Notes under the pieces: model-generated
Databases searched by the model: none
Seen by the model: the letters and a program-made list of their open reading frames with translations, nothing else
Told to the model about the DNA's origin: nothing
Program-made: the position numbers and the translations under genes
Part shown: positions 3,408 to 58,593 of the stretch, in pieces
Layout of the letters: each line of letters opens with the position of its first letter
How positions within the stretch are numbered: position 1 is the stretch's first letter
NCBI RefSeq assembly: GCF_017654505.1
Contig: NC_054560.1
Location: 480,389-544,388 of the forward strand
Origin: Polyodon spathula
Lineage: Eukaryota; Chordata; Actinopteri; Acipenseriformes; Polyodontidae
Length of the DNA: 64,000 bases
Direction of reading: 5' to 3'

Positions 3408-5582
3408 TTACAACTCCTGCTTCAATTGATCGAACCTTTGTTGACACTGCTCTGTCCACTCCCATGGTACTCCTTTCTTCTTAAGATTATTCAGAGGAGA
3501 GGCAATGTCTGCAAACTTAGCTATAAATTTATGGTACCACCTGGCTAAACCCAAAAATCTCTGTAGGGTTTTAAGATTGATAGGAACCGGGTAATCCCTA
3601 ATAGATTGCACCTTCTCTGGGTCCACCGCCACCCCCTTCCCGGACACAATGTGTCCTAGAAACCTAAGAGAGGATTGAAAAAAACTGCATTTCTCTAAAT
3701 TAAGTGTTAACTTTGCTTCCTCAAGAGTGCGGAACACAGCTGCCAAGTCCGTGACATGTTGTTTCTCATTGGGGGAATAAACAATGATGTCATCGATATA
3801 TACAAAGCAAATGCTCTCTCTCAATGTTCCCAAGACCTGCTGCATCAGCCGTTGGAAGGTTGCTGCGGCATTTTTCAATCCAAAAGGCATTACCTTGAAT
3901 TGATATAGACCAAAGGGTGTGGTAAAAGCAGTCTTTGGCTTACTCAACACGTCCATAGCAACTTGCCAATAACCCAACTTCAGATCCAGAGCGCTGAAAA
4001 CAGAAGCTCCTTTTAAAGACTCCAGGATATCGTGGACTTGTGGCATGGGAAACGCATCTAAGTTTGTCTTAGCATTTATCCCACGATAATCCACGCAAAA
4101 CCTGTAGGTGCCATCTTTCTTTTCGACTAACACCACCGGTGCAGCCCAGGCAGATGATGATGGCTCCACAATACCATCCCTAATCATATCCTGAAGATGT
4201 TGATAGATAATGGTTTTCTTGTACTCGGACACTCGATAAGTGGGAGCACGTACAGGTACCTCATCTACAGTATAGATCACATGGCTGGCTACAGTGGTTC
4301 TCCCTGGTCGGGAAGTGCAAACAGCAGGCCACTGCTTTATTAGTTGCACCACCGGATCTTGAGATATGACCCCCCTCTCTCCAGTAACTTCTACCTTCTT
4401 CACCACCTTAGCACACCCCATAGGTATCGCCACATATAACTGCATCAGCAACTGATCTTCCTGAACCTTCTGCTTCCATATTTTTCCCCACACCATCTCA
4501 AGTGAAAATGGATAGAACACATATCTTTTGTCAACCTTCACGCCATATACTTGCGCCCCCAAATCTAGTAAAGTAGAAGTCTTCTTCAAAAAATCCAATC
4601 CCAGAATCAAAGGGTGAGCTAAGTGGGAGTCATCTATTATAAACGTATCTATGGACCAAAACTGTCCATGAAGATTAAAAGTAAACCTAAATTTTCCCAA
4701 CGCAGAATGAGACTGACCATTAGCTAAAACAAATAATTTGTCAGCACATGGAGCTAATTGATCCTTCGGTTGGCAAAGTTTTGACCACAGATCATTTCTC
4801 ATCAAAGTATAAGTACACCCTGTATCCACTAGAGCCAAGCCTTCCCACCACGGGACAGATATAGCCATGGATAGCAAAGTGAGCTTTTTGTTACCATTGC
4901 CGTCTAGCCGAGGCGCTTGAACATTGTGAACCACAGACACATCTGCTGACATCTTGACTAACCCTTTATTACTTTTCTTAGAGATATTCTCTGCTTTGGC
5001 ATTCACCTTAGCCCAATATTCCTTCTGGGCGGCCCAGTCTCTTTCTACCATCGCTCCTACACGAACCAAATCTGAAACAGTAGATACTGATCCTCTAATA
5101 AAGCTAGCTAGCTTCGGATTTGCATTACCCAAGATCCTTTCTGCCAACTCTGCCTCGCTCATTTCAGGACACCATTTGAGACAGAGTGCACGATAATCAT
5201 AAGTAAAATCACGAATGCACTCACTTGGGTCTTGGACCCGTTCAAGCAATCTCTTCTCAACTTCTGATAAATAATCTGTGGGGAGAAAAGCCTCCACAAA
5301 AGCCGTTTTAAACTGTTTCCAAGTTTTAACCTTATAACGCTCCGCCATCCACCAGCTCTTAGCCGGTCCCTTCAGTACCGTGGATAAGGTAGCCAAAATC
5401 TCAGCCTCAGTCATAGACACTACCGCCAAAAAATCTTGACAGGCATCTACAAACCCCAACACATCTACATGCCCTTCCCCTTCCCCATAAACAGGAAAGT
5501 TCAGCTTAATGGGGGGTTTAGAGGAATAAACTGGATATTTACAGGTTTCAGTTACCATGGGTCTAATAGACAACCCCTCCAA
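3408..5582 (-). CDS. Gypsy-1 gag-protease-reverse transcriptase polyprotein (724 aa, stops early)
   Basis: Residues ~30-200 are a gag capsid-like helical region, with WWMAERYKVKTW and FLPTDYLSEVEKRLLERVQ resembling Ty3/gypsy capsid. I see no CCHC knuckle. An aspartic protease follows, with active-site DTG at 253-255 and a LILGLDFL flap-like strand near 326. Reverse transcriptase covers ~440-700, with DFAYR-type motif CVDYRGINA, SALDLKLGYWQ, VMPFGLKNA and catalytic YIDD at 595-598. Thumb and connection follow to QRFDQLKQEL, where a TAA interrupts pol before RNase H. Gag and pol are in one frame. The start shown is the first ATG; the true gag start may be the internal Met at residue 9. LINE-A begins within the first codons, so the 5' leader is lost. 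Confidence 0.9.
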   Translation of the reverse strand: MEGLSIRPMVTETCKYPVYSSKPPIKLNFPVYGEGEGHVDVLGFVDACQDFLAVVSMTEAEILATLSTVLKGPAKSWWMAERYKVKTWKQFKTAFVEAFLPTDYLSEVEKRLLERVQDPSECIRDFTYDYRALCLKWCPEMSEAELAERILGNANPKLASFIRGSVSTVSDLVRVGAMVERDWAAQKEYWAKVNAKAENISKKSNKGLVKMSADVSVVHNVQAPRLDGNGNKKLTLLSMAISVPWWEGLALVDTGCTYTLMRNDLWSKLCQPKDQLAPCADKLFVLANGQSHSALGKFRFTFNLHGQFWSIDTFIIDDSHLAHPLILGLDFLKKTSTLLDLGAQVYGVKVDKRYVFYPFSLEMVWGKIWKQKVQEDQLLMQLYVAIPMGCAKVVKKVEVTGERGVISQDPVVQLIKQWPAVCTSRPGRTTVASHVIYTVDEVPVRAPTYRVSEYKKTIIYQHLQDMIRDGIVEPSSSAWAAPVVLVEKKDGTYRFCVDYRGINAKTNLDAFPMPQVHDILESLKGASVFSALDLKLGYWQVAMDVLSKPKTAFTTPFGLYQFKVMPFGLKNAAATFQRLMQQVLGTLRESICFVYIDDIIVYSPNEKQHVTDLAAVFRTLEEAKLTLNLEKCSFFQSSLRFLGHIVSGKGVAVDPEKVQSIRDYPVPINLKTLQRFLGLARWYHKFIAKFADIASPLNNLKKKGVPWEWTEQCQQRFDQLKQEL

Positions 5583-6297
5583 AGAGGTGGAAGGTCAGAA
5601 CAGCTGGGTTCAGGTAGGCAGAAGCAGGGAAAAAAAGAAACTTCGTCAAACACAACCACCAGAAATCAAAACAACCAACAGATTTGAGTCACTTCAGAAT
5701 TTTGATGAGCAGAACCAACAACAAGAGAATGAAAGGAACAACATCCAGGACCCTATTGACAGTGGTGACCAGACAGCAAAAAGAAGGGAGGTCATGATTG
5801 TTGGGGACTCCATATTGAGAAACACAGCAAGTTCAGTTCGCAGTTTGGACCCCCTTACTACAACAGTGTGCTGCCTTCCGGGAGCCTCGGTCAAGCACAT
5901 CACTGAGAACGTGGACAGGCTCCTAGAACGAACAGGAGACGACCCGGTAGTAGTCGTCCACATCGGTACAAACAACATTGGAAGAGACAGACCAAAATCC
6001 CTGCAAAACAAATTCAGAGAGCTAGGAAGGAAATTAAAAGAGAAAACCAAAACTGTGGTATTTTCTGGTATACTACCCGCACCTTGCAAAGGACCATATG
6101 GACAGCTGGAAATAATTAATCAAAACCAATGGCTGAAGACGTGGTGCACACGGGAAGGCTTCACCTATCTTGATCATTGGACCACATTCTACAACGAGGA
6201 CTATCTGTATAGACGGGATGGACTGCATTTAAATAACAAGGGAACTAGTCTACTTGGAGAAAAGATCCTCGAGCAGGTTCGGAAGCATTTAAACTAG
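5557..6297 (+). CDS. LINE-A ORF1, esterase-type ORF1 protein, 5' truncated
   Basis: The C-terminal ~230 residues match ORF1 of copies B and C. A basic/Gln-rich linker (REKKKLRQ, NFDEQNQQQENERN) is followed by an SGNH-hydrolase-like domain: GDSILRN with the Ser, HIGTNNIGRDR, and the terminal RRDGLHLNNKG carrying the Asp and His. ORF1 proteins of some vertebrate CR1/L2 LINEs are known to carry such an esterase domain. The N-terminal zinc and coiled-coil part of copy B is missing. The apparent start ATG is fused with flanking gypsy-1 sequence and is not the native start. The frame ends at TAG directly after T-TTA-AAC. Confidence 0.85.
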   Translation: MGLIDNPSKEVEGQNSWVQVGRSREKKKLRQTQPPEIKTTNRFESLQNFDEQNQQQENERNNIQDPIDSGDQTAKRREVMIVGDSILRNTASSVRSLDPLTTTVCCLPGASVKHITENVDRLLERTGDDPVVVVHIGTNNIGRDRPKSLQNKFRELGRKLKEKTKTVVFSGILPAPCKGPYGQLEIINQNQWLKTWCTREGFTYLDHWTTFYNEDYLYRRDGLHLNNKGTSLLGEKILEQVRKHLN

Positions 6298-9077
6298 AAA
6301 GGAAGGGGGGAGAAATCAACAAAAAAACAGAAGGGAGACCGCATCAAAACAAGAACAACAACTCAGGTAAGACAACCATTAAATGTATTTATCTAAATGC
6401 TAGAAGTATCAGAAACAAAATTCTAGAACTTGAAGCTACTGCACTAACAGGTAACTATGATGTGATAGGTGTTACAGAAACGTGGTTGTCTGAGAGTGAT
6501 GGGGACGAATATAATATTTGTGGGTATACACTGTATAGGAAAGACAGGCAGGACAGAAGAGGAGGAGGGGTAGCGCTATACATAAGAAACAGTCTTGAAG
6601 CCCAGGTGTTAAACCTGGACAAAGAAAATAAAACCGAATCAATATGGGTCAGAATAACAGACAAAAATTCAAAAGGCATAATAATAGGAGCATGCTATAG
6701 ACCGCCAGATTCAGACGGTGAGCACAATAATCTGTTATACAATGACATTAGAAATGTGTGTAGCAAAGGAGAAGCCATACTAATGGGGGATTTCAACTTC
6801 CCCCAAATAAAATGGGAAAACCCGGTGGGTAGCGCGAAGGATGAAATAGAAATGGTGGAAATGACAAATGACTGCTTCCTAACACAATTTGTGAAGGCAC
6901 CCACTAGAGGGGAGGCATGCCTTGATTTAGTCTTTTCAAATAACGAAGATAGAATAACTAAAACAGAGGTCAGAGAACCACTGGCAAACTCAGACCACAA
7001 CATGGTCTCATTTGAAGTGTTTTTTAAATCCCCAAAAGTAAAGACTAAAGCTAAGGTTTACAATTTTAGAAAAGCAAACTATGAAGGTATGAAACAGAGA
7101 CTAACAGAAGTAGATTGGAGTAAAATAGAGAAAACACCCACAGAAGAAGGATGGTTGTTCTTCAAAAATGTAGTACTAGAGGCGCAAAACAATTATATCC
7201 CTAAAGTAGACAAATCTAAATGTAAAACTAAATTGCCAAAATGGTTTAATAGATCAATTAAAAAAATATTCAGCGAAAAAAGGCACTTTACAGAGCATTA
7301 AAAAAGGACCAAAAAGAAAGTACACAGAAAGAGTACACAGAACTGCAAATGCAAGTCAAAAAGGAAGTTAGAAAGGCCAAGAGAGAAATAGAAATGAACA
7401 TTGCTAAGGGAGCTAAAACCAATTCCAAAATGTTTTTCCAATATTACAACAGCAAGAGAACATTCAAAGAGGAGATTAAATGTTTAAGAGATACAAATGG
7501 CAAAATCGTAGAGGAAGAAAAAAAAATAGCAAATATGTTAAATGATTACTTTTCACAAGTTTTTACAAAGGAAGATACTGACAACATGCCCCACATGTCA
7601 TCCAGTTCCTATCCAGTTTTAAATAACTTTAGCATAACTGAGGCAGAAGTGTTAAAGGGACTAGGAGCTCTTAAAATAAACAAATCCCCTGGGCCGGATG
7701 AGATCCTCCCAGTAGTACTCAAAGAAATGAAAGAAGTAATTTACAAACCGCTAACCAAGATCATGCAGCAGTCTCTTGACACAGGGGTGGTACCGACAGA
7801 CTGGAAAATTGCAAACGTAATACCGATCCACAAAAAGGGAAACAAAACTGAACCAGGTAACTACAGACCAGTAAGCCTGACTTCTATTATATGCAAACTT
7901 ATGGAAACTATAATAAGATCCAAAATGGAAAATTACCTATATGGTAACAGGGTACTGGGAGACAGTCAACATGGTTTTAGGAAAGGGAGATCGTGCCTAA
8001 CTAACTTGCTTTGATTTTTTTGAGGATGCAACATCGATAATGGATAATTGCAAAGCATATGACATGGTTTATTTAGATTTCCAGAAAGCTTTTGACAAAG
8101 TCCCGCACAAAAGATTAATTCTCAAACTGAACGCAGTTGGGATTCAAGGAAACACATGTACATGGATTAGGGAGTGGTTAACATGTAGAAAACAGAAAGT
8201 ACTGATTAGAGGAAAAACCTCAGAATGGAGTGTGGTAACCAGCGGTGTACCACAGGGATCAGTATTAGGTCCTCTGCTATTCCTAATCTACATTAATGAT
8301 TTAGATTCTGGTATAGTAAGCAAACTTGTTAAATTTGCAGACGACACAAAAGTAGGAGGAGTGGCAAACACTGTTGCAGCAGCAAAGGTCATTCAAAATG
8401 ATCTAGACAAGATTCAGAACTGGGCAGACACATGGCAAATGACATTTAATAGAGAAAAGTGTAAGGTACTGCACGCAGGAAATAAAAATGTACATTATAA
8501 ATATCATATGGGAGATATTGAAATTGGAGAAGGAATCTATGAAAAAGACCTAGGAGTTTTTGTTGACTCAGAAATGTCTTCATCTAGACAATGTGGGGAA
8601 GCTATAAAAAAGGCTAACAAGATGCTCGGATACATTGTGAAAAGTGTTGAATTTAAATCAAGGGAAGTAATGTTAAAACTGTACAATGCACTAGTAAGAC
8701 CTCATCTTGAATATTGTGTTCAGTTCTGGTCACCTCGCTATAAAAAAGATATTGCTGCTCTAGAAAGAGTGCAAAGAAGAGCGACCAGAATTATTCCGGG
8801 CTTAAAAGGCATGTCATATGCAGACAGGCTAAAAGAATTGAATCTGTTCAGTCTTGAACAAAGAAGACTACGTGGCGACCTAATTCAAGCATTCAAAATT
8901 CTAAAAGGTATTGACAGTGTCGACCCAAGGGACTTTTTCAGCCTGAAAAAAGAAACAAGGACCAGGGGTCACAAATGGAGTTTAGAAAAAGGGGCATTCA
9001 GAACAGAAAATAAAGCTGACACCCTGGGATCCTTCAAGAAGCTGCTTGATGAGATTTTGGGATCAATAAGCTACTAA
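6249..9077 (+). pseudogene. LINE-A ORF2: AP endonuclease and reverse transcriptase, frameshifted
   Basis: ORF2 supplies target nicking and target-primed reverse transcription. The frame opens at 6249, overlaps ORF1 in the -1 phase and has no ATG before the endonuclease. Endonuclease motifs are TETWLSE, ACYRPPDSDGE, MGDFNFPQ and NSDHNMV (to ~7015). RT motifs are INKSPGPDEI, IPIHKKGN, NYRPVSLTS, VYLDFQKAFDKVPH, SGVPQGSVLGPLLF and FADDTKVGG (catalytic FADD at about 8335). The C-terminal region has RPHLEYCVQFWSP and VQRRATRI. Breaks: one A is missing from the A8 run near 7262, and an extra T sits near 8010 in GCTTTGATT. The ~65 bp deletion near 9010 keeps the reading frame. Family assignment is firm and activity is unlikely. 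Confidence 0.9.
6288..6294 (+). promoter_or_regulatory. Candidate -1 ribosomal frameshift site in LINE-A
   Basis: ORF1 ends CAT-TTA-AAC-TAG, so TTTAAAC is in the X-XXY-YYZ phase of a canonical slippery heptamer. Slipping back one base gives the ORF2 frame, which is open from 6249 to 7301. A purine-rich stretch (AGGAAGGGGGGAG) follows; I cannot identify a pseudoknot by eye. Confidence 0.6.
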
Positions 9078-17870: not shown

Positions 17871-17933
17871 CACTGTTGGGCACTGACTTTTTATTTAAAT
17901 TAGGTGTTAGTATAGACTTAAGAGCAAAAACTT

Positions 17934-19707
17934 GTGTTTTTTTTAAATCAGACTTTCTCTTTGGTGTCCAAGTTTAAGGAGTGTGTAGTTAAGCAGGTCT
18001 GTCTGAGTGAGACTGTGATTATTCCAGCTCGTACTGAAAGGATGTTGGCTGCAGAGGTGAGGGGGTTGTATGGTCAAGGTTGTGAGGGGATAGTAGAACC
18101 AGCCTTTACCTTTACTGAAAAATATAATATTTTTGTGGCTAGAACTGTTGCGCACCCTTGTGGTGGACAGTTAGTAGTTCATGTGGCTAATTTGCAGGGG
18201 GAACCACAGGAGTTGTGGAAGGGAACAGTTATTGCTGAGTTTACGTCAGGAGTGACAGTGATGCAACTTGAACAGGGGGAGGATAAGAGTTCATGTGCTA
18301 GTGTGGATATATTAGTTCAGGAGTTGGGATTACCAAATCGTGGGCTATCTACTGTACAATATGAAGCAGTTGGACGAGAACTGCAGAAATACCTACCGGT
18401 GTTTAGCTTGGGCGATAATGACCTTGGCAAAACTTCTCTTGTATATCATCAAATCGATACAGGATCCTCTAGACCTGTCAAGATGGGTCCCAGGAGGATG
18501 CCGGTGCACCTCCAAGAAGAAGTTAATATCCACCTGCAAGAGATGCTGGATAGTAACATCATTAGGCCATCACACAGCCCCTGGGCGGCTCCAGTGGTGC
18601 TGGTGCGGAAGAAGGATGAGAAGCTTCGGTTCTGTGTTGATTATAGGAAGTTGAATGAGGTCACAGTAAGGGATGCATATCCCTTCCCTCAAATAGATGA
18701 CACGCTTGATACTTTGGCTGGAGCACAATGGTTTTCAACTCTCGACTTGGCCAGTGGTTACTTTCAGCCTCTGCAATGCTCTGAGCATGTTCCAACGGTT
18801 GATGGAGCTGGTGCTGGCTGATTTGCAGTGGACCAAGTGTTTGGTCTATTTGGACGATATCATCGTTTTCAGTCAGACTTTTGAGGAACACTTGGCGCGT
18901 CTGGGGGAAGTACTTGGGAACCTGAAGCAAGCTAACTTGAAGGTCAAGCCAAGCAAATGTCAGTTATTTGCTTCTGAAGTTAAATACTTGGGGCATGTCA
19001 TATCAGGAAAAGGTGATGCTATTCGATCTTGGCCTGTACCGACAAACTCCACTGATGTAAGGAGCTTTCTTGGTTTAGCATCGTATTACAGGCGTTTTGA
19101 CGCGGAATTTGCTGCTGAAGCCCTTCCTTTACATCGACTAACTGACAAGTGTGCAAAGTTTGAGTGGACTATGAACAGTCAACAAGCTTTTGATGAACTG
19201 AAACAATGCTTGACCCACTCCCCTGTCCTGGCATACCCTGAAATGAACAAGCAGTTCCTGTTGGATACCGACACTAGCAATATGGGCATTGGAGCGGTGC
19301 TATCCCAGATGGATGGAGGTCATGAAAGAGTGATAGCTTATGCTAGCCGCGCCTTGACCAAACAAGAACGCAATTATGCTACTACCAAGAAGGAGCTGTT
19401 AGCTGTAGTGACTTTTTGTGAGTATTTTCGACATTTCTTGCTGGGGAAGGAGTTTATTTTGTTAACTGATCATGGGTCATTGCGATGGCTACATAATTTT
19501 AAAGAGCCTGAGGGCCAATTGGCATGGTGGCTGGAACGGTTAGCACCTTTTCATTACTCAATTATACATCGCCCAGGGCGTCTTCACCAAAATGCAGACG
19601 CGTTGTCTCGTCGACCATTAGAGGCCACTTTTGCCCCAGCTTATGTAATCCAACCGAATGAGGCTTTGCAAGCAAACCAGGATGCAGGAGATGTTCAAGA
19701 AGCCTAG
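17934..19707 (+). pseudogene. Gypsy-2 reverse transcriptase and RNase H
   Basis: A linker with MLAAEVRGLYG leads into RT: SPWAAPVVLVRKKDEKLRFCVDY, KLNEVTVRDAYPFPQIDDTLD and WFSTLDLASGYF. About 90 bp normally encoding the KTAFSTPFGLYQFNVMPFGL-type block is deleted here, and the frame jumps to CNALSMFQRLM and catalytic YLDD (about 18849-18860). A smaller deletion follows ISGKG. RNase H has LLDTDTSNMGIGAVLSQ, YASRALTKQERNYATTKKELLAV and LTDHGSLRWL, ending at NADALSRRP. The deleted RT palm block means it could not function. Domain identity is certain. Confidence 0.88.
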
Positions 19708-21600: not shown

Positions 21601-23340
21601 GAAAAGGACAGCACAAGGCAGCAACCACAACACCAGCTGGAGGAAAAGCAGCCCGGGTGTTACTGTTGCGCTGAGCCAGGGCATTCTAGCACCAACTGCC
21701 CCCGGTACCCCCTCGGACAGCTACCCCAACTGTGGAGGTGAGAACTATGTGGCCCGCTGCCCTGTCCATCAGGAGAAGGAGGAGCAGAGGTCGCCTCAGT
21801 CTTCCCCCACCATCAGCTGGGAGCAGAGTTATGTCCGGGCTGTGGGGCATATGGGCACACGTTAGCCATATGCCCTACGCAGTATGGAGAGGAGGAACTG
21901 GCCCAGGAGAGGAAGGTGAGGAGAAGGCAGAAAAGGGGAAAGGGGAAGAGGAAGGCAGAGGTCCCACCGCTGTCTCCAGAGCTGCACCAGTCCCCTGCAA
22001 GTGAGGGAGAGCCGCACCAGTCCCCTGTAACAAGGGTAGACTACCCGCTACTCTCACCTCCGTCGCCAGGAGACTGCACGCCACCTCCACTGGCAGGAGA
22101 CTACACGCCTCCGCCACCTCCATCGGCGGGAGCAGAGCAGCAGGAGCTGTCTCTGCCTCCACCACCTCCATTGGCAGGAGCTTCCTCTGCCTCCGCCACC
22201 TCCATCGGCAGGAGCAGAGCAGCAGGAGCTGTCTCTGCCTCCGCCACCTCCATTGGCAGGAGCAGAGCCGCAGGAGCTGCCTCTGCCTCCTCCACCAGCA
22301 GAGGGTGAATGCCTGCTGGGTCCCTGTCCACCAGCAGAGGGTGAATGCCTGCTGGGTCCCTGTCCACCAGCAGAGGGTGAATGCCTGCTGGTATCACTTC
22401 CCCAACCAGCAAAGGGTGAATGCCTGCTGGTATCACTTCCCCCACCATCACAAGGAGAGGAGCTGGAGCTTCCTCTGCCTCCACCTCCATCAGGGAGAGA
22501 GGAGCAGGAGCTGCCTCTCCCTGCACCAGAAGGACCAGGACTAGATGCTGGCGGTCCTCAGCAGCCCTTGCATAGGCTGCTGAGGGAAGCACAGGGAAGA
22601 ACCTCCCAGCCGCAGTGGCTGAAAAGAGGGCCAACACCCACACCTCAGCTTGTCCCGACTGCCTGTCTCGCTCGCCCAAGGATTTCAGCCTCGCTTCGCC
22701 CAAGGATGCCTACGCATCACCTGGGGTCGCCCGCCGCTCCGCATCGCCTGGGGTTGCCCGCCGCTCCGCATCGCCTGGGGTCGCCCACCGCTCCGCATCT
22801 CCTGGGGTCACCCGCCGCTCAGCATTGCCTGGGGTTACCCGCCGCTCAGCATCGCCTGGGGTTGCCTGCCACTCCGCATCACAGCCGGAAGTACTGTGGC
22901 CGGAACCCCACAAAGGGGAGCTGCCGGCCATGAAGAAGGGGGAGGAGGTCTGGAGACCACCAACCCCAGCAGCAGTTTTGCTGCCGGAGAAGGGGGAGGA
23001 GGTCTGGAGACCACCAACGCCAGCAGCAGTTTCGCTGCCGGAGATCGTGGGGGAGGAGGTCTGGAGACCACCAACCCCAGCAGCAGTTTCGCTGCCAGAG
23101 AAGGGGGAGGAGGTCTGGAGACCACTAACCCCAGCAGCAGTTTCGCTGCTGGAGATCGTGGGGGAGGAGGTCTGGAGACCACCAACCCCAGCAGCAGTTT
23201 TGCTGCCGGAGATCGTGGGGGAGGTCCGGAGACCTGCTCCCTCTGCAGTTTCTTCCCTGCAGGAAGAACTGTGGTTGAAGCCCCACCAAGGGGAGCTGCC
23301 GGCGCCGAAGAAGGGGGAAGGTCAGGAGACCACACCCTAA
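21601..23340 (+). pseudogene. Gag-like ORF: two CCHC zinc knuckles and proline-rich repeat tracts
   Basis: The first frame encodes CYCCAEPGHSSTNCP, a perfect C-x2-C-x4-H-x4-C nucleocapsid knuckle at about 21660. A second, in a shifted frame near 21834, reads CPGCGAYGHTLAIC with the same spacing. A basic segment (RKVRRRQKRGKGKRK) and a Pro-rich region follow. In-frame tandem repeats come next: PPAEGECLL units (~36 bp, 22300-22440), SPGVARRSA units (27 bp, 22710-22870) and EEVWRPPTPAAV units (~57-63 bp, 22935-23220). Frameshifts split the reading frame. RNA binding by the knuckles is known of the family; the role of the repeats is unknown. No capsid fold or protease is recognised. Confidence 0.65.
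22300..23225 (+). repeat. Three coding minisatellites within the gag-like ORF
   Basis: Periods of ~36, 27 and 57-63 bp are all multiples of three and preserve the frame. The third alternates between units containing EKG and EIVG. Confidence 0.8.
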
Positions 23341-23536
23341 GCAGCCTTTCTGCTGCCAGGACTACCCTGGCAGGAGAATGCCACCCCACTGTCAACATTG
23401 CTGCTGACAGCATTACGACCCGTGGGCCCCTGGAAGCCTCCGGTCCTGGCCAAGGACTTTGGGCGGGACTTTTGGGCTTTTAAGGGGGGAGGTGGCCATT
23501 GAGGCCATGTGTGCTTTGCACAGGGGGGGGGGTATA

Positions 23537-24903: not shown

Positions 24904-25339
24904 TACTCGTACTTCCGCCCCTCACCAAGGTGCCGCCCCTCAAAAGATGACTTTTGCCATGGTCACGAGATCTTGGTAAGGGAAGTCCCGAGTTGGTTTG
25001 ATGCCATCTACTGTCGGGAGGCTGAATCACAGACCGAAATCCCTTTGACTCATCACATATCCCACCCCTCAGAGTGGAGCCGAAGGAACACTCGGAAACC
25101 TCTAACCCTTCCCTTTTCCCTCCCTCCCGGGAAAAAAAATCAGCATTTTGATGTAACTTACCCGCACGATACCTTATTTGAAAGGCGAAGGGTTGGAGCG
25201 CCAGGTACCACCGCGTAATCCTAGCGTTTGAATCCTTCATCGTGTCTAACCACTTTAAAGAAGCGTGATCTGTGATGAGTACAAAAGGTCGTCCCAGAAG
25301 ATAGTATTTTAAAGATTTGCCCATTTCACTGCCAGGCAT
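24904..25339 (-). pseudogene. Gmr1-like RNase H C-terminal part, frameshifted
   Basis: Continues pol after a frameshift near 25315-25330. It shows KSLKYYLLGRPFVLITDHASLKW, with the RNase H Asp, and the closing GKLHQNADFFSRE (usually ALSR). After that only an unrecognised tail runs toward the LTR. There is no integrase after RNase H, which confirms the unusual gene order. Confidence 0.85.
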
Positions 25340-27661
25340 TCTTTCTCCACTACCGAATACCTCTGTTCTCTGGGCAGTAACTTCCGACTGATGTATAGTA
25401 TCGGGTGTTCTATACCATCTCTCTCCTGGGACAGAACCGCCCCCAGACCAGTCTGCGATGCATCTGTCTGCAGGACGAACTCTCGGCTGAAATCCGGGCT
25501 TATTAATGCTGGGGCCTGACTCAAATTAGTTTTAATAGATTCAAAGGCTGTCTGACACTCTGCACTCCACTTAATTTTATTTGGAGCGTTCTTTTTAGTG
25601 AGATCAGTGAGAGGGGCGGCTATAGTGGAAAAGTGTGGAATAAAGCGGCGGTAATAACCAGCCAACCCTAACAGTGATCTCACCTGGGTTTTCGTGGTAG
25701 GTACCGGTGAATCCAACAAAGCCTGGACTTTTGAAACCAACGGTTTCACTCTACCCTTACCCATTATGAAACCTAAATATTTAGTTTCTTCTTTTCCAAT
25801 AGCGCACTTTGCCATGTTCGCTGTGAGCCCCGCCCTCCTCAGAGACTGTAAGACGGCTTCTAATCTAGTCAAATGTTCTCTCCAGGAAGAACTATAAATG
25901 ACTACATCATCGATATACGCAGCTGCATACTCTCGATGAGGTTGTAAAACCCTGTCCATTAGTCTCTGAAAAGTAGCAGGCGCTCCATGAAGTCCGAACG
26001 GCATAGTACAAAATTGAAAAAGACCCTCTGGGGTTGAAAATGCCGTTTTCTCACGAGAGGCTTTCGTTAATGGAATTTGCCAATATCCTTTCGTCAGATC
26101 CAGAGTTGAAATAAACCGAGCTTGCCCCAGTTTGTCTAAGAGTTCATCTACTCGAGGCATGGGATATGCATCAAACTTGGAGATAGCATTCACCCTCCTA
26201 AAATCGATACATAATCGTAGTGACCCATCTGGCTTGTCTATTGGTACTATTGGGCTACACCACTCACTTCGGGAAGGTTCAATTACCCCAAGTTTCAACA
26301 TACACTCCACCTCCCTTCGAACAGAATCTCTCCGACTCTCTGGAATGCGATACGGTCTCTGTCTAACTCTTAGACCTGGCGGAGTGATAATAGCATGTTC
26401 GATCAAATGCGTTCTTCCAGGCACGTTAGAAAACACATCACTGAACATTTTAATTAGATTGCTTACCTCTTCACGCTGATCAGGAGTTAATTGTTCCCCC
26501 ATCGGGACCTCAATTGCTGACTCTGGCTCAATTGAGGGTCCAAAATCCTCTCCCTCCTGTACAGGAGATATAAAATGGACTTCCCGTTCTTTCCACGGTT
26601 TCAGGAGATTAACATGATAAATTTGACTTTCTTTCCGACGCCCAGGCTGTCGGATCTCATAATTGACTTTACCAATTGCTCGAATAACCTGAAAGGGACC
26701 CTGCCATTTAGCAAACAACTTAGATTCCGATGAGGGCAACAATAACAACACTTTATCTCCAGGTCGAAAGTTCCGAATTCTTGCATTTTTATTGTAGCTT
26801 TGTTGCTGCTTCTGCTGTGCCGCTTTGAGATTGTCATGTGCCAATCGACCGACTAATTCTAAGCGATCGCGTAACTGCAACACATATTTTACTACATTTT
26901 TAGACTCCTTTGACTGTTCTTCCCAGCCTTCTCTTATGAGATCCAAGATACCCCGCGGCTGCCGACCGTACAAGAGCTCAAACGGGGAAAACCCCGTTGA
27001 GGATTGTGGTACCTCGCGAACTGCAAAGAGCAAGTAGGGAAGCAGTTTAGCCCAATTGCGTTTTTCTTGATCTACAAAGCGGCGCAACATATTTTTCAAA
27101 GTCTGATTAAATCGTTCAACAAGCCCATCCGTTTGAGGATGAAAAACTGAGGTTCTAATTGAACGAATTTTCAATAATTTATATAGTTGCTGAATACAGT
27201 CTGACATAAAATTAGTGCCCTGATCAGTGAGAATTTCTTTCGGGATTCCCACCCTAGAGAATATTTTTACCAATTCATTCGCTACAGCTACTGCATTCAT
27301 AGAGCGTAAGGGAACAGCTTCTGGATATCTCGTTGCGTAGTCCACTACTACTAAAATATACCGATATCCTGACTCTGTTCCCTCCAGAGGGCCTACTAAA
27401 TCTACACCAATCCTTTCAAACGGTACCCCAATAATTGGAAGTGGAACCAGAGGTGCGGGGCGAACTGACTTAGGGGCAGCTAATTGACATTCAGGACACT
27501 CCGATACATACTTCCGCACAAGACCATAAACCCCAGGCCAAAAAAACCGGGCCAGAATTCGTTCCTGAGTCTTTTCAGTTCCCAAATGACCTGAAAATGG
27601 AATGTCATGCGCCAATCTCATGACTTCTGACTGAAAAGGCCTAGGAACCAATAACTGTTTT
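25309..27661 (-). CDS. Gmr1-like pol: integrase-RT-RNase H
   Basis: This is one long open frame of ~785 residues. Integrase comes first: zinc site H21, H28, C58, C61, then D90 (GVDLVGPL), D149 (LTDQGTNF) and E185 (GLVERFNQT), with a GPF/Y-like module near 324. RT follows: CIDFRRVNA, STLDLTKGYWQ, CTMPFGLHGA and YIDD at 585-588. RNase H has LQTDASQTGLGAVLSQ and VEKECLAVKW, where the frame is lost to a frameshift. The apparent initiator ATG belongs to the LINE-B tail at the junction, so the real pol continued upstream. All integrase and RT catalytic residues appear intact, which suggests a comparatively young copy. Confidence 0.9.
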
Positions 27662-27925
27662 AAGAACATAAGAACATAAGAAAGTTTACAAACGAGAGGA
27701 GGCCATTCGGCCCATCTTGCTCGTTTTGGTTGTTAGTAGCTTATTGATCCCAAAATCTCATCAAGCAGCTTCTTGAAGGATCCCAGGGTGTCAGCTTCAA
27801 CAACATTACTGGGGAGTTGATTCCAGACCCCTCACAATTCTCTGTGTAAAAAAGTGTCTCCTATTTTCTGTTCTGAATGCCCCTTTTTCTAAACTCCATT
27901 TGTGACCCCTGGTCCTTGTTTCTTT

Positions 27926-30636
27926 TTACAGGCTGAAAAAGTCCCTTGCGTCGACACTGTCAATACCTTTTAGAATTTTGAATGCTTGAATTAGGTCGCC
28001 ACGTAGTCTTCTTTGTTCAAGACTGAACAGATTCAATTCTTTTAGCCTGTCTGCATATGACATGCCTTTTAAGCCCGGAATAATTCTGGTCGCTCTTCTT
28101 TGCACTCTTTCTAGAGCAGCAATATCTTTTTTATAGCGAGGTGACCAGAACTGCACACAATATTCAAGATGAGGTCTTACAAGTGCATTGTACAGTTTTA
28201 ACATTACTTCCCTTGATTTAAATTCGACACTTTTCACAATGTATCCGAGCATCTTGTTAGCCTTTTTTATAGCTTCCCCACATTGCCTAGATGAAGACAT
28301 TTCTGAGTCAACAAAAACTCCTAGGTCTTTTTCATAGATTCCTTCTCCAATTTCAATATCTCCCATATGATATTTATAATGTACATTTTTATTTCCTGCG
28401 TGCAGTACCTTACACTTTTCTCTATTAAATGTCATTTGCCATGTATCTGCCCAGTTCTGAATCTTGTCTAGATCATTTTGAATGACCTTTGCTGCTGCAA
28501 CAGTGTTTGCCACTCCTCCTATTTTTGTGTCGTCTGCAAATTTAACAAGTTTGCTTACTATACCAGAATCTAAATCATTAATGTAGATTAGTAATAGCAG
28601 AGGACCTAATACTGATCCCTGTGGTACACCACTGGTTACCACACTCCATTCTGAGGTTTTTCCTCTAATCAGTACTTTCTGTTTTCTACATGTTAACCAC
28701 TCCCTAATCCATGTACATGTGTTTCCTTGAATCCCAACTGCGTTCAGTTTGAGAATTAATCTTTTGTGCGGGACTTTGTCAAAAGCTTTCTGGAAATCTA
28801 AATAAACCATGTCATATGCTTTGCAATTATCCATTATCGATGTTGCATCCTCAAAAAAATCAAGGAAGTTAGTTAGACACGATCTCCCTTTCCTAAAACC
28901 ATGTTGACTGTCTCCCAGTACCCTGTTACCATATAGGTAATTTTCCATTTTGGCTCTTATTATAGTTTCCATAAGTTTGCATATAATAGAAAGTCAGGCT
29001 TACTGGTCTGTAGTTACCTGGTTCAGTTTTGTTTCCCTTTTTGTGGATCGGTATTACGTTTGCAATTTTCCAGTCTGTCGGTACAACCCCTGTGTCAAGA
29101 GACTGCTGCATGATCTTGGTTAGCGGTTTGTAAATTACTTCTTTCATTTCTTTGAGTACTACTGGGAGGATCTCATCCGGCCCAGGGGATTTGTTTATTT
29201 TAAGAGCTCCTAGTCCCTTTAACACTTCTGCCTCTGTTATGCTAAACTTATTTAAAACTGGATAGGAACTGGATGACATGTGGGGCATGTTGTCAGTATC
29301 TTCCTTTGTAAAAACTTGTGAAAAGTAATCATTTAACATATTTGCTTTTTTTTTTTCTTCCTCTACGATTTTGTCATTTGTATCTCTTAAACATTTAATC
29401 TCCTCTTTGAATGTTCTCTTGCTGTTGTAATATTGGAAAAACATTTTGGAATTGGTTTTAGCTCCCTTAGCAATGTTCATTTCTATTTCTCTCTTGGCCT
29501 TTCTAACTTCCTTTTTGACTTGCATTTGCAGTTCTGTGTACTCTTTCTGTGTACTTTCTTTTTGGTCCTTTTTTTAATGCTCTGTAAAGTGCCCTTTTTT
29601 CGCTGAATATTTTTTTTAATTGATCTATTAAACCATTTTGGCAATTTAGTTTTACATTTAGATTTGTCTACTTTAGGGATATAATTGTTTTGCGCCTCTA
29701 GTACTACGTTTTTGAAGAACAACCATCCTTCTTCTGTGGGTGTTTTCTCTATTTTACTCCAATCTACTTCTGTTAGTCTCTGTTTCATACCTTCATAGTT
29801 TGCTTTTCTAAAATTGTAAACCTTAGCTTTAGTCTTTACTTTTGAGGATTTAAAAAACACTTCAAATGAGACCATGTTGTGGTCTGAGTTTGCCAGTGGT
29901 TCTCTGACCTCTGTTTTAGTTATTCTGTCTTCGTTATTTGAAAAGACTAAATCAAGGCATGCCTCCCCTCTAGTGGGTGCCTTCACAAATTGTGTTAGGA
30001 AGCAGTCATTTGTCATTTCCACCATTTCTATTTCATCCTTCGCGCTACCCACCAGGGTTTTCCCATTTTATATGGGGGAAGTTGAAATCCCCCATTAGTA
30101 TGGCTTCTCCTTTGCTACACGCATTTCTAATGTCATTGTATAACAGATTATTTTGCTCACCGTCTGAATCTGGCGGTCTATAGCATGCTCCTATTATTAT
30201 GCCTTTTGAATTTTTGTCTGTTATTCTGAACTATATTGATTCGGTTTTATTTTCTTTGTCCTGGTTTAACACCTGGGCTTCTAGACTGTTTCTTATGTAT
30301 AGCGCTACCCCCTCCTCCTCGTCTGTCCTGCCTGTCTTTCCTATACAGTGTATACCCACAAATATTATATTCGTCCCCATCACTCTCAGATAACCACGTT
30401 TCTGTAACACCTATCACATCATAGTTACCTGTTAGTGCAGTAGCTTCAAGTTCTAGAATTTTGTTTCTGATACTTCTAGCATTTAGATAAATACATTTAA
30501 TGGTTGTCTTACCTGAGTTGTTGTTCTTGTTTTGATGCGGTCTCCCTTCTGTTTTTTTGTTGATTTCTCCCCCCTTCCTTTCTAGTTTAAATGCTTCCGA
30601 ACCTGCTCGAGGATCTTTTCTCCAAGTAGACTAGTT
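27926..30636 (-). pseudogene. LINE-B ORF2: endonuclease and reverse transcriptase
   Basis: The same domains as LINE-A ORF2, with an RT/C-terminal block of 348 residues (VYLDFQKAFDKVPH, SGVPQGSVLGPLLL, FADDTKIGG, RPHLEYCVQFWSP). Breaks include an extra base near 30053 in the endonuclease, a change in CGAAAAAAGGGC near 29595, an extra A near 28991, and a duplicated C near 27828 in the terminal region. Each main copy (A, B, C) is broken in or near the same A-rich patch encoding NIQRKK, by different indels. The frame is in the -1 phase of ORF1. Confidence 0.88.
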
Positions 30637-31529
30637 CCCTTGTTATTTAAATGCAGTCCATCCCGTCTATACAGATAGTCCTCGTTGTAGAATGTGGTCC
30701 AATGATCAAGATAGGTGAAGCCTTCCCGTGTGCACCACGTCTTCAACCATTCGTTTTGATTAATTATTTCCAGCTGTCCATATGGTCCTTTGCAAGGTGC
30801 GGGTAGTATACCAGAAAATACCACAGTTTTGGTTTTCTCTTTTAATTTCCTTCCTAGCTCTCTGAATTTGTTTTGCAGGGATTTTGGTCTGTCTCTTCCA
30901 ATGTTGTTTGTACCGATGTGGACGACTACTACCGGGTTGTCTCCTGTTCGTTCTAGGAGCCTGTCCACGTTCTCAGTGATGTGCTTGACCGAGGCTCCCG
31001 GAAGGCAGCACACTGTTGTAGTAAGGGGGTCCAAACTGCGAATTGAACTTGCTGTGTTTCTCAATATGGAGTCCCCAACAATCATGACCTCCCTTCTTTT
31101 TACTGTCTTGTCACCACTGTCAATAGGGTCCTGGATGTTGTTCCTTTCATTCTCTTGTTGTTGGTTCTGCTCATCAAAATTCTGAAGTGACTCAAATCTG
31201 TTGGTTGTTTTGATTTCTGGTGGTTGTGTTTGACGAAGTTTCTTTTTTTCCCTGCTTCTGCCTACCTGAACCCAGCTGTTCTGACCTTCTATCTCCCTGG
31301 TGGCTTTCAGTCTGTTAGGGGTGATGCAGACTTCCATGAATTGTGGGTGTGCCAGTTCCTCAAGATCCTGTTGCTGTCTCACTTCTTCCAGCTCCATTTC
31401 TAGCATGCTTACTAGTTTATGCAAATCCTGGATCGCGCGGCACTTTACGCACACTTGGTTTAGCTCCGCTGGGTTTTCTCGGATTTCCCACATCAAGCAG
31501 GTGTCACAGATTACTGGCTTGAAGACCAT
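30582..31529 (-). CDS. LINE-B ORF1: zinc/coiled-coil/SGNH esterase protein (315 aa), intact
   Basis: Residues 8-30 hold two Cys pairs (CDTC, CVKC), a likely zinc site. Residues ~33-60 (LVSMLEMELEEVRQQQ) look like a coiled coil, and a basic Gln-rich linker follows. The SGNH-like hydrolase domain covers ~145-310: Ser154 in GDSIL, GTNN at 206-209, and the Asp290/His293 pair in DGLHL. ORF1 proteins of this clade bind element RNA; the role of the esterase is unresolved, with membrane association suggested in the literature. The ATG follows a T-run (A-run on the coding strand) and the monomer array. It ends at TTA-AAC-TAG, preceded by T, over the candidate frameshift site. Confidence 0.9.
   Translation of the reverse strand: MVFKPVICDTCLMWEIRENPAELNQVCVKCRAIQDLHKLVSMLEMELEEVRQQQDLEELAHPQFMEVCITPNRLKATREIEGQNSWVQVGRSREKKKLRQTQPPEIKTTNRFESLQNFDEQNQQQENERNNIQDPIDSGDKTVKRREVMIVGDSILRNTASSIRSLDPLTTTVCCLPGASVKHITENVDRLLERTGDNPVVVVHIGTNNIGRDRPKSLQNKFRELGRKLKEKTKTVVFSGILPAPCKGPYGQLEIINQNEWLKTWCTREGFTYLDHWTTFYNEDYLYRRDGLHLNNKGTSLLGEKILEQVRKHLN
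30585..30591 (-). promoter_or_regulatory. Candidate -1 frameshift site in LINE-B
   Basis: TTTAAAC in X-XXY-YYZ phase, immediately before the ORF1 TAG. The surrounding bases are identical to copies A and C. Confidence 0.6.
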
Positions 31530-31574
31530 GTTGAGGGTTTTTTTTTTTTTTTTTTTTGAAGTTTAGTTTCTTCT

Positions 31575-34752: not shown

Positions 34753-35288
34753 AAAGTTCAAAAGCTTTATTTTGGTTCAAAAATCAAATATGCACAGCAA
34801 ATACAAAACAACAATATACATGACAAACTTCAAAAATCTTTTACAATTACATTCTTAAACTTCACACAATAAAAGAAAACCATCAAATTTGGACAAATCA
34901 ATAGCTCTTTCAATTCACTTTTAACATTTGACAGATACAAAACCAACATCACATTTACAATCATGTCACAGAGACACAAATACATTGGCCAAGTTAATGT
35001 CAATCAAATTCATTAAAGGGGGAGGTAATAGCAGGAGAACTAAAATAAGGGATCAAATCCCAAGGAATAGGCAACACCAGGGTGCTACCAGTGACAAACA
35101 CAACATGTAAACCAACACAAGACAAAAATACATTTAAACAAAGCAAATTCTACAACTAACCCAACAAATTAAGCTCTAAAAGCATCAAAATACAACTAAG
35201 CTTCACCTAACACATGTTATAATAAACTACACCTCAACACACTGAGCTAAAAGCACAAATAATTGCAGTCAAATGAGACATTTACACA
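34753..35288. other. A/C-rich non-coding DNA
   Basis: The plus strand is dominated by A and C, with recurring ACAAAAC- and CACCTAACAC-type words. It contains CAGGGTGCTACCAGTGAC near 35078, a motif that recurs at ~37290, 37695 and 37995. No gene seen. Confidence 0.6.
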
Positions 35289-47516: not shown

Positions 47517-47548
47517 AATCATATGCAGGCCATTCAGTGTATAATCCT

Positions 47549-54527: not shown

Positions 54528-54600
54528 CATAAGAACATAAGAACATAAGAAAGTTTACAAACGAGAGGAGGCCATTCGGCCCATCTTGCTCGTTTGGTTG

Positions 54601-57501
54601 TTAGTAGCTTATTGATCCCAAAATCTCATCAAGCAGCTTCTTGAAGGATCCCAGGGTGTCAGCTTCAACAACATTACTGGGGAGTTGATTCCAGACCCTC
54701 ACAATTCTCTGTGTAAAAAAGTGTCTCCTATTTTCTGTTCTGAATGCCCCTTTTTCTAAACTCCATTTGTGACCCCTGGTCCTTGTTTCTTTTTTCAGGC
54801 TGAAAAAGTCCCTTGCGTCGACACTGTCAATACCTTTTAGAATTTTGAATGCTTGAATTAGGTCGCCACGTAGTCTTCTTTGTTCAAGACTGAACAGATT
54901 CAATTCTTTTAGCCTGTCTGCATATGACATGCCTTTTAAGCCCGGAATAATTCTGGTCGCTCTTCTTTGCACTCTTTCTAGAGCAGCAATATCTTTTTTA
55001 TAGCGAGGTGACCAGAATTGCACACAATATTCAAGATGAGGTCTTACAAGTGCATTGTATAGTTTTAACATTACTTCCCTTGATTTAAATTCAACACTTT
55101 TCACAATGTATCCGAGTATCTTGTTAGCCTTTTTTATAGCTTCCCCACATTGCCTAGATGAAGACATTTCTGAGTCAACAAAAACTCCTAGGTCTTTTTC
55201 ATAGATTCCTTCTCCAATTTCAATATCTCCCATATGATATTTATAATGTACATTTTTATTTCCTGCGTGCAGTACCTTACACTTTTCTCTATTAAATGTC
55301 ATTTGCCATGTGTCTGCCCAGTTCTGAATCTTGTCTAGATCATTTTGAATGACCTTTGCTGCTGCAACAGTGTTTGCCACTCCTCCTACTTTTGTGTCGT
55401 CTGCGAATTTAACAAGTTTGCTTACTATACCAGAATCTAAATCATTAATGTAGATTAGGAATAGCAGAGGACCTAATACTGATCCCTGTGGTACACCACT
55501 GGTTACCACACTCCATTCTGAGGTTTTTCCTCTAATCAGTACTTTCTGTTTTCTACATGTTAACCACTCCCTAATCCATGTACATGTGTTTCCTTGAATC
55601 CCAACTGCGTTCAGTTTGAGAATTAATCTTTTGTGCGGGACTTTGTCAAAAGCTTTCTGGAAATCTAAATAAACCATGTCATATGCTTTGCAATTATCCA
55701 TTATCGATGTTGCATCCTCAAAAAAAATCAAACAAGTTAGTTAGGCACGATCTCCCTTTCCTAAAACCATGTTGACTGTCTCCCAGTACCCTGTTACCAT
55801 ATAGGTAATTTTCCATTTTGGCTCTTATTATAGTTTCCATAAGTTTGCATATAATAGAAGTCAGGCTTACTGGTCTGTAGTTACCTGGTTCAGTTTTGTT
55901 TCCCTTTTTGTGGATCGGTATTACGTTTGCAATTTTCCAGTCTGTCGGTACCACCCCTGTGTCAAGAGACTGCTGCATGATCTTGGTTAGCGGTTTGTAA
56001 ATTACTTCTTTCATTTCTTTGAGTACTACTGGGAGGATCTCATCCGGCCCAGGGGATTTGTTTATTTTAAGAGCTCCTAGTCCCTTTAACACTTCTGCCT
56101 CAGTTATGCTAAAGTTATTTAAAACTGGATAGGAACTGGATGACATGTGGGGCATGTTGTCAGTATCTTCCTTTGTAAAAACTTGTGAAAAGTAATCATT
56201 TAATATATTTGCTATTTTTTTTTTCTTCCTCTACGATTTTGCCATTTGTATCTCTTAAACATTTAATCTCCTCTTTGAATGTTCTCTTGCTGTTGTAATA
56301 TTGGAAAAACATTTTGGAATTGGTTTTAGCTCCCTTAGCAATGTTCATTTCTATTTCTCTCTTGGCCTTTCTAACTTCCTTTTTGACTTGCATTTGCAGT
56401 TCTGTGTACTCTTTCTGTGTACTTTCTTTTTGGTCCTTTTTTAATGCTCTGTAAAGTGCCTTTTTTTCGCTGAATATTTTTTTTAATTGATCTATTAAAC
56501 CATTTTGGCAATTTAGTTTTACATTTAGATTTGTCTACTTTAGGGATATAATTGTTTTGCGCCTCTAGTACTACATTTTTGAAGAACAACCATCCTTCTT
56601 CTGTGGGTGTTTTCTCTATTTTACTCCAATCTACTTCTGTTAGTCTCTGTTTCATGCCTTCATAGTTTGCTTTTCTAAAATTGTAAACCTTAGCTTTAGT
56701 CTTTACTTTTGGGGTTTTAAAAAACACTTCAAATGAGACCATGTTGTGGTCTGAGTTTGCCAGTGGTTCTCTGACCTCTGTTTTAGTTATTCTATCTTCG
56801 TTATTTGAAAAGACTAAATCAAGGCATGCCTCCCCTCTAGTGGGTGCCTTCACAAATTGTGTTAGGAAGCAGTCATTTGTCATTTCCACCATTTCTATTT
56901 CATCCTTCGCGCTACCCACCGGGTTTTCCCATTTTATTTGGGGGAAGTTGAAATCCCCCATTAGTATGGCTTCTCCTTTGCTACACACATTTCTAATGTC
57001 ATTGTATAACAGATTATTGTGCTCACCGTCTGAATCTGGCGGTCTATAGCATGCTCCTATTATTATGCCTTTTGAATTTTTGTCTGTTATTCTGACCCAT
57101 ATTGATTCGGTTTTATTTTCTTTGTCCAGGTTTAACACCTGGGCTTCAAGACTGTTTCTTATGTATAGCGCTACCCCTCCTCCTCTTCTGTCCTGCCTGT
57201 CTTTCCTATACAGTGTATACCCACAAATATTATATTCGTCCCCATCACTCTCAGATAACCACGTTTCTGTAACACCTATCACATCATAGTTACCTGTTAG
57301 TGCAGTAGCTTCAAGTTCTAGAATTTTGTTTCTGATACTTCTAGCATTTAGATAAATACATTTAATGGTTGTCTTACCTGAGTTGTTGTTCTTGTTTTGA
57401 TGCGGTCTCCCTTCTGTTTTTTTGTTGATTTCTCCCCCCTTCCTTTCTAGTTTAAATGCTTCCGAACCTGCTCGAGGATCTTTTCTCCAAGTAGACTAGT
57501 T
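54601..57501 (-). pseudogene. LINE-C ORF2: endonuclease intact, RT frameshifted
   Basis: The endonuclease frame is open from the ORF1 overlap to ~56371, with TETWLSE, ACYRPPDSDGE, MGDFNFPQ and NSDHNMV. The frame is then lost at an A7 run (should be A6) near 56465. A long T-run near 56215 and an extra A near 55727 cause further breaks. The main RT block (55731-54601, 376 aa) is complete from VYLDFQKAFDKVPH through FADDTKVGG to the end KLLDEILGSISY. Only homopolymer indels seem to separate this copy from a continuous frame, so it is probably young. Confidence 0.9.
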
Positions 57502-58345
57502 CCCTTGTTATTTAAATGCAGTCCATCCCGTCTATACAGATAGTCCTCGTTGTAGAATGTGGTCCAATGATCAAGATAGGTGAAGCCTTCCCGTGTGCAC
57601 CACGTCTTCAGCCATGCGTTTTGATTAATTATTTCCAGCTGTCCATATGGTCCTTTGCAAGGTGCGGGTAGTATACCAGAAAATACCACAGTTTTGGTTT
57701 TCTCTTTTAATTTCCTTCCTAGCTCTCTGAATTTGTTTTGCAGGGATTTTGGTCTGTCTCTTCCAATGTTGTTTGTACCGATGTGGATGACTACTACCGG
57801 GTCGTCTCCTGTTCGTTCTAGGAGCCTGTCCACGTTCTCAGTGATGTGCTTGACCGAGGCTCCCGGAAGGCAGCACACTGTTGTAGTAAGGGGGTCCAAA
57901 CTGCGAACTGAACTTGCTGTGTTTCTCAATATGGAGTCCCCAACAATCATGACCTCCCTTCTTTTTACTGTCTTGTCACCACTGTCAATAGGGTCCTGGA
58001 TGTTGTTCCTTTCATTCTCTTGTTGTTGGTTCTGCTCATCACAATTCTGAAGTGACTCAAATCTGTTGGTTGTTTTGATTTCTGGTGGTGTTTGACGAAG
58101 TTTCTTTTTTTCCCTGCTTCTGCCCACCTGAACCCAGCTGTTCTGACCTTCTATCTCCCTGGTGGCTTTCAGTCTGTTAGGGGTGATGCAGACTTCCATG
58201 AATTGTGGGTGTGCCAGTTCCTCAAGATCTTGTTGCTGTCTCACTTCTTCCAGCTCCATTTCTAGCATGCTTACTAGTTTATGCAAATCCTGGATCGCGC
58301 GGCACTTTACGCACACTTGGTTTAGCTCCGCTGGGTTTTCTTGGA
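57447..58345 (-). CDS. LINE-C ORF1, esterase-type, N-terminus replaced
   Basis: Matches LINE-B ORF1 from ENPAELNQ onward, including the second Cys pair (CVKC), the coiled-coil segment and the full SGNH domain (GDSIL, GTNN, DGLHL). One codon is missing in the QTPPEIK linker. The first residues and ATG come from flanking TGGATGGAATGG sequence, so the apparent start is accidental. The frame ends at the TTTAAAC-TAG junction. Confidence 0.88.
57450..57456 (-). promoter_or_regulatory. Candidate -1 frameshift site in LINE-C
   Basis: TTTAAAC in slippery phase immediately before the ORF1 TAG, followed by the same purine-rich stretch as in copies A and B. Confidence 0.6.
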
Positions 58346-58593
58346 TGGAATGGATGGAAATTGCCAAAATAAAGGGGCAACTGGAAGGTCAATAATCTGA
58401 ACTGGTCTAATGTTATTACTACTGGCAATCTCTGCACTGTAACCGAGGCCGATTACCAAACTTACAATAGGCTATAATTACCTTTCTTTTATTTTGTGTC
58501 TTACTGCACCTTATCACTTGTACTTATCACTGTGTTTTATTGAAGTTTATTGCGTGTCTTTACATCATTAATGGCATGTTCCGTACATATCTT

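Follow-up and report, generated by a model that had tools for sequence, protein, structure and literature searches.

The junction between the two open reading frames (ORFs) of a long interspersed nuclear element (LINE), probably of CR1 type, is likely to be a programmed –1 ribosomal frameshift site, conserved among CR1-type LINEs, that would yield a low level of an ORF1-endonuclease-reverse transcriptase (RT) fusion. The element is present in several copies in a 64,000-nucleotide stretch of the paddlefish Polyodon spathula genome (contig NC_054560.1, positions 480,389 to 544,388, forward strand), which we refer to as the window; three of these copies (A, B and C) include the junction. The slippery heptamer TTTAAAC, its phase, the –1 frame of ORF2, the open linker, the lack of an AUG in the family of the window copies (the window family, or family A) and the conservation of the junction over families and taxa can all be read from the sequence.

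In the proposed mechanism, most ribosomes would end ORF1, which encodes a zinc-finger-like, coiled-coil, esterase protein, at the UAG codon, and a small fraction would slip back one base with UUA-AAC in the ribosome, re-pairing on UUU-AAA. The slipped ribosomes would decode CUA in place of the stop codon and proceed into ORF2, with an ORF1-linker-endonuclease-RT fusion as the low-level product. We infer that ribosomes do slip here, that the fusion acts as the functional enzyme and that the stop codon and a nearby G-rich tract serve as stimulators.

A slippery heptamer in phase at the ORF1/ORF2 junction

The features of the three copies are as follows.

6288..6294 (+): slippery heptamer T TTA AAC of copy A, in the X XXY YYZ phase of ORF1 (sequence and phase)
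6295..6297 (+): ORF1 stop codon TAG of copy A, adjoining the heptamer (sequence)
5590..6297 (+): ORF1 of copy A, 5' truncated, with SGNH/GDSL esterase domain (similarity to copies B and C; PF13472)
6249..7301 (+): open –1 frame of ORF2 of copy A, comprising the overlap with ORF1, the linker and the endonuclease; first ATG at 6783
6294..6395 (+): 34-codon linker of copy A, which begins with the shifted codon CTA and leads up to endonuclease motif NARS
6301..6312 (+): G-rich tract GGAAGGGGGGAG of copy A, a candidate stimulator (sequence; similar tracts in families B and C)
8001..9077 (+): RT part of ORF2 of copy A (open frames, Pfam)
30585..30591 (–): heptamer TTTAAAC of copy B (sequence)
30582..31562 (–): ORF1 open frame of copy B, with start and stop (open frames)
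57450..57456 (–): heptamer TTTAAAC of copy C (sequence)
57447..58388 (–): ORF1 open frame of copy C, 5' truncated, with stop (open frames, similarity, Pfam)
56371..57495 (–): open –1 frame of ORF2 of copy C, with endonuclease (open frames)
54528..54551 (–): 3' tail (TTCTTATG)n of copy C (8-base repeats)

The description of the junction in the original prediction was borne out. ORF1 of copy A ends CAT TTA AAC TAG, with the heptamer in exact phase beside the stop codon, and ORF2 lies in the –1 frame, which is open through the junction. The same heptamer is found in copies B and C, and the downstream sequence, said to be alike for about 100 bases, is identical for about twice that distance: the three copies agree at every base over the 80 bases that precede the heptamer, over the heptamer itself and over about 200 bases beyond it. 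The first Met of the ORF2 frame is residue 179 (in ...ILMGDFNF...), which is inside the endonuclease, while the conserved endonuclease motif NARS begins at residue 50 (6396). Because no ATG comes before residue 179, an intact ORF2 of the window family cannot be made by ordinary initiation at AUG. Similarly, we found no stop-start (UAAUG) coupling site in copy A, in which no ORF2-frame ATG precedes 6783. The linker of the window family contains no CTG, GTG, TTG or ACG codon, and the only near-cognates in it are AGG, AAG, ATC and ATT.

A TAG parts the two ORFs, so that readthrough of this codon might be considered, but ORF2 is in the –1 frame and frame 0 runs into another stop codon before the endonuclease; we regard readthrough as effectively ruled out. 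Slippage at the level of the transcript is unlikely, since the heptamer is free of long homopolymers and the stop codon precedes the A7 run (6321-6327). With readthrough and AUG initiation excluded in the window family, either –1 frameshifting or an AUG-independent restart remains. The heptamer is distinctive by its place and phase, not by its frequency: bare TTTAAAC occurs 25 times in the window compared to 20.7 expected from shuffled sequences.

The window family is young

The LINE is probably of CR1 type, fitting the CR1 clade by its esterase ORF1 and its 3' tail. Pfam detects an SGNH/GDSL esterase (PF13472) in ORF1 of copies A and C, and an APE-type endonuclease (PF03372/PF14529) and an RT (PF00078) in ORF2, the endonuclease in the –1 frame and the RT in a later one; ORF2 of copy A is split into three frames. 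The 3' end of copy C consists of 8-base repeats of TTCTTATG, matches to which also lie beside other copies, and we take such an 8-base microsatellite to be the CR1 type of tail. Turtles and birds have relatives of its ORF1, which supports placement with CR1 rather than L2 or Rex1.

Over about 3.4 kb, identity to copy A is 98.7% for copy B and 99.2% for copy C, and therefore agreement among the window copies is uninformative on selection. The similarity of copy A to the other two begins at about 5590, and because of this 5' truncation its open frame at 5530-6297 begins in flanking DNA; an ORF1 start with Met is seen in copy B only. Copy A also lacks about 63 bases at 9012-9013, near the end of ORF2, an in-frame loss of 21 residues, and these bases are present in copies B and C and in copies at 32223 and 44485. 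In the genome, the 40 scored matches (of 894 candidates) did not differ at any of 301 bases around the junction, which indicates that the family is recent. We read 16 of 30 anchor loci on one strand, leaving out the other 14 and L001-L008; 13 retain TTTAAAC and three have no upstream part. Among predicted proteins, two from P. spathula match the window ORF1, one at 97% identity over 24% of the query and one at 94% over 22%, and proteins of Acipenser sinensis match it at 74-89%. Selection leaves no visible trace among such young, identical copies, and diverged relatives were used as the test.

The junction decamer recurs in older families of the same genome

Two older CR1 families of the paddlefish genome, B and C (not to be confused with copies B and C), have the junction decamer TTTAAACTAG by majority base, as does the window family. 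Family B is old and decayed, and was represented by 34 rows that amount to 30 distinct loci when four repeated loci are counted once. Its majority sequence reads ...GGATTTAAACTAGGCAGGGGGGTGGGTGGG..., translated as RKDLN-stop in frame 0 and without a stop in the –1 frame through FKLGRGVGGNQNQVLVRAKGVSHIESKMKCLCLNARSIRNK. Seventeen copies pass both flank tests, that is, can be aligned on both sides, and seven of these retain the exact decamer. Measured from the DGLHL-type motif, the ORF1 end of family B runs three residues beyond the usual 26, and LN still stands at the stop codon. The consensus ORF1 of this family reads ..ERTLRKTRKDLN followed by the stop, with RTL at the position where other families have a terminal RTLN, as if a new slip site and stop codon, a few codons further on, had taken over from the old ones.

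For family C, 15 loci were fetched, nine of which span the junction. Three of the nine (L102, L113 and L114) read TTTAAACTAG exactly, L110 and L108 deviate from it at one and two bases, and four near-identical copies (L103, L105, L106 and L107) are without one A of the heptamer. The remaining six of the 15 loci diverge in their upstream part. Seven kin of family C (L047, L100, L101, L104, L109, L111 and L112) have its linker and endonuclease start joined to a different upstream part, which contains neither heptamer nor ORF1 end and represents a separate subfamily or a different 5' end.

The –1 frame is open throughout linkers of 102 bases in family A, 93 in family B and 120 in family C, the last being read from a single locus, L103. 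Dinucleotide shuffles kept these linkers open in 370 (A), 190 (B) and 280 (C) of 2000 trials.

Most ORF1 relatives across vertebrates end in Leu-Asn

The ORF1 ends of relatives in other vertebrates are generally those expected of a junction that retains T TTA AAC before the stop codon. The matches listed include 127 ORF1-type relatives (one protein search listed 120 of 215 matches). The 3' end was readable in 94; the other 33 carry no DG.HL-type motif among their last 40 residues (being truncated, mosaic or extended by extra tails; P0075, P0085 and P0107 belong here) and were left out. Of these 94, 89 terminate exactly at LN followed by the stop; they share 26-89% identity with the window ORF1 and derive from birds, lizards, turtles, frogs, coelacanth, an eel, sturgeon, sharks and rays.

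If T TTA AAC is retained, the residue before LN must be one that an NNT codon can encode, and this is the case in 88 of the 89 proteins (Ala 46, Gly 12, Tyr 8, Thr 7, His, Cys, Phe and Ser 3 each, Leu, Ile, Val and Glu 1 each). This residue is not itself conserved: on a tree of 87 rows it has changed at least 20 times, with one row in 87 lacking any NNT codon, whereas the two residues further upstream are mostly Arg, Glu, Lys or Gln and lack any NNT codon in 30 and 32 of the 87 rows. The tree comprises 86 of the 89 LN-ending relatives (those of 200 amino acids or longer) and window copy C; its columns include the C-terminus, and its rows were selected for the LN ending, so that losses of LN are uncounted.

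One might suppose that the C-terminal Leu-Asn is kept for the sake of the esterase protein, with TTTAAAC a by-product and ORF2 expressed in some other way. The retention of LN-stop in nearly all readable ends would be consistent with this, as would the fact that the DNA is known from three families of one genome. However, twelve codon pairs encode Leu-Asn, and the majority sequence of all three families has TTA and AAC with a preceding T; LN stays at the stop codon of family B in spite of the longer end; and the NNT-codable residues before LN (Ala, Gly, Tyr, Thr, His, Cys, Phe, Ser, Leu, Ile and Val) form no chemical class, so that the limit on this position follows none. We therefore consider an explanation from the protein end very unlikely. 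It is less likely still that a common, AT-rich heptamer stands beside the stop codon by chance. The lack of enrichment of the bare heptamer in the window would fit such an origin, but the same place and phase recur in families A, B and C and, as deduced from the proteins, in ORF1 ends across vertebrates.

Two CR1 ORF1-type proteins bear unexpected labels. P0047 is labelled Pseudomonas aeruginosa and falls among shark and ray rows in the tree, and P0028 is labelled Protopolystoma xenopodis, a parasite of frogs, and falls among frog-type rows. The labels reflect contamination or, for P0028, transfer. Scans of viral contigs yielded no DNA of relatives, and a search of genome contigs for relatives yielded six bacterial esterase loci (L039-L044), which were not used.

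Two predicted proteins run through the junction

Two predicted proteins span the junction in the ORF2 frame with FKL at the position of the heptamer: P0107 from the tortoise Gopherus evgoodei (..LIRVFKLGIWG.. to TNARSLGNK) and P0130 from the stingray Hypanus sabinus (..ARGGFKLDVQGAG.. to LNARSVRNK), the latter being the one junction-crossing protein added by a search with ORF2 (120 of 223 matches listed). FKL in the –1 frame and LN-stop in frame 0 on the same bases require TTTAAAC or TTTAAAT followed by the stop, a deduction that combines proteins of different copies.

The original prediction also held that ORF2 has no ATG ahead of the endonuclease. This is true of the window family, but families B and C and the tortoise and stingray elements have in-frame ATGs upstream of the endonuclease, at non-corresponding positions, and could all use initiation at these codons. 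The missing ATG is thus a trait of the window family, not of CR1 generally.

Frameshifting compared with reinitiation

Several observations weigh against programmed frameshifting. The in-frame ATGs of the relatives are one. The RNA structure looked for downstream of the heptamer did not appear: no fold exceeded that of shuffled sequences in the three families (z of +0.23 and –0.49 in the window family, –0.44 in family B and +1.48 in family C), by a folding model that leaves out pseudoknots, quadruplexes and long-range pairing. In the dead copies of family B there is no extra constraint on the heptamer, its mean agreement being 0.85 compared to 0.85, 0.81 and 0.84 for the flanks; decay of the heptamer is expected after insertion, and only the majority sequence thus bears on the active element. 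In family C, the –1 linker is open in L103, which has the heptamer minus one A, and is broken by a length change in L102, in which the heptamer is intact. Five of the 94 readable ORF1 ends are not LN (P0006, P0049 (HLS), P0050, P0052 and P0064 (ALI)), and one LN end, that of P0083 (ELN), cannot carry a T before TTA. Finally, outside the paddlefish genome, the codons are deduced from protein ends rather than read from DNA.

The main rival is AUG-independent or otherwise unconventional reinitiation, in which terminating ribosomes would restart near the ORF1 TAG in the ORF2 frame and the conserved bases would be a reinitiation signal. Reinitiation is the published model for two-ORF LINEs (PMC2881922, PMC5009743), and both the in-frame ATGs in some CR1 relatives and the lack of a detected frameshift-stimulating structure speak for it. 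Nothing in it predicts that T TTA AAC stands in exact phase, that the frame is always –1 or that the linker stays open as far back as the heptamer, as seen in families A, B and C, and family A is without an AUG for 178 codons and has no CTG, GTG, TTG or ACG in its linker. Thus we consider reinitiation unlikely, although less so than any of the other alternatives. Frameshifting is favored over a restart because the phase, the –1 frame, the open linker and the T before TTA AAC are conserved as it predicts. The proposal of a frameshift fusion accordingly stands as the best supported and has passed the comparison with diverged relatives, without the RNA structure and without the absence of ATGs beyond the window family.

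A UAG directly after the heptamer recurs in the three families, and a G-rich tract starts within about ten bases of it: GGAAGGGGGGAG in family A, GGGGGGTGGGTGGG in family B, and TTGGGGGGC or similar in family C, by eye. We put forward the adjoining UAG and the G-rich tract, as hypotheses from the sequence, as candidate stimulators in place of a pseudoknot. LINE ORF2 protein is required in small amounts only, and a low basal shift may suffice.

Relation to known systems

The original prediction called for a heptamer conserved in relatives; families B and C show it in their majority sequence, in DNA of one genome, and the protein ends imply it elsewhere. The claim that UUUAAAC is strongly slippery, also from the original prediction, agrees with the literature, which places U_UUA_AAC with the heptamers that shift most readily on mammalian ribosomes (PMC5009743). 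Coronavirus sites of the infectious bronchitis virus (IBV) type share the UUUAAAC heptamer, the phase and the fusion of an upstream to a downstream ORF with the CR1 junction, but in those a structured stimulator follows, while at the CR1 junction none was detected and the zero-frame stop codon adjoins the heptamer (PMC5009743). Classical –1 sites in general mostly have a downstream structure. In many animal long terminal repeat (LTR) retrotransposons, pol lies in the –1 frame and a heptamer stands at a suitable place; gag-pol frameshifting in LTR elements makes RT a minority product joined to that of the first ORF, as proposed here. These are LTR elements with Gag, whereas the window element is a LINE with an esterase-type ORF1 (PMC5009743).

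For two-ORF LINEs, reinitiation or unconventional initiation has been proposed (PMC5009743, PMC2881922), namely AUG-independent ORF2 translation for L1 and stop-start coupling for SART1 (PMC2881922). These elements resemble CR1 in that ORF2 would be expressed after ORF1 by an unconventional route, but the models invoke coupling or reinitiation without a frameshift, and the UAAUG of SART1 is absent from the window LINE. Chicken and turtle CR1 with a zinc-finger/coiled-coil/esterase ORF1 (CR1_7, ORF1 type IVB; PMC4120745) share with the window LINE the esterase ORF1, the endonuclease-RT ORF2, an 8-base 3' tail repeat and heavy 5' truncation; unlike our proposal, their description in the available text is of two ORFs without frameshift-based expression (PMC4120745). 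Within the portions at hand of five papers on CR1 or esterase-type ORF1 (PMC4316615, PMC4120745, PMC3905857, PMC2734521, PMC4255032), frameshift expression is not mentioned; older CR1 papers lie outside this comparison. Nor did any of the titles and opening lines of abstracts turned up by literature searches describe frameshifting in CR1.

The slip site is probably a feature of esterase-type CR1 LINEs across vertebrates, and thus wider than first claimed. A conserved slip site would be a simple, testable answer to the question of how the enzyme of CR1, a common vertebrate LINE, is translated, and would bring frameshifting, known from retroviruses and LTR elements, into LINE expression. The CR1 junction would offer a natural –1 site without an evident pseudoknot, and, if the proposal is true, annotations that place the ORF2 start at the first ATG carry a wrong N-terminus. 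More tentatively, and with rather more doubt than confidence, we suggest that esterase-type vertebrate CR1 elements have used a fixed decamer, UUUAAACUAG, for the RT fusion since before the split of sharks and bony vertebrates, if CR1 is vertically inherited; that a stop codon in the A site and the G-rich tract, not a pseudoknot, set the low rate; and that a stop-coupled frameshift without evident structure would be the standard ORF2 route of a major LINE clade.

Other features of the window

LINE copy A begins at the very edge of a long open frame at 3408-5594 (–). This frame and those at 17922-19707 (+) and 25309-27732 (–) resemble, by eye, what we take to be pieces of Gypsy-type gag-pol, and the long open frame at 50052-50960 (–) presumably belongs to a DIRS-type RT, which it resembles by eye. 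At 22040-23483, 35263-36443 and 47025-47942, long open frames in multiple frames are, by eye, short tandem repeats (minisatellites) and not genes.

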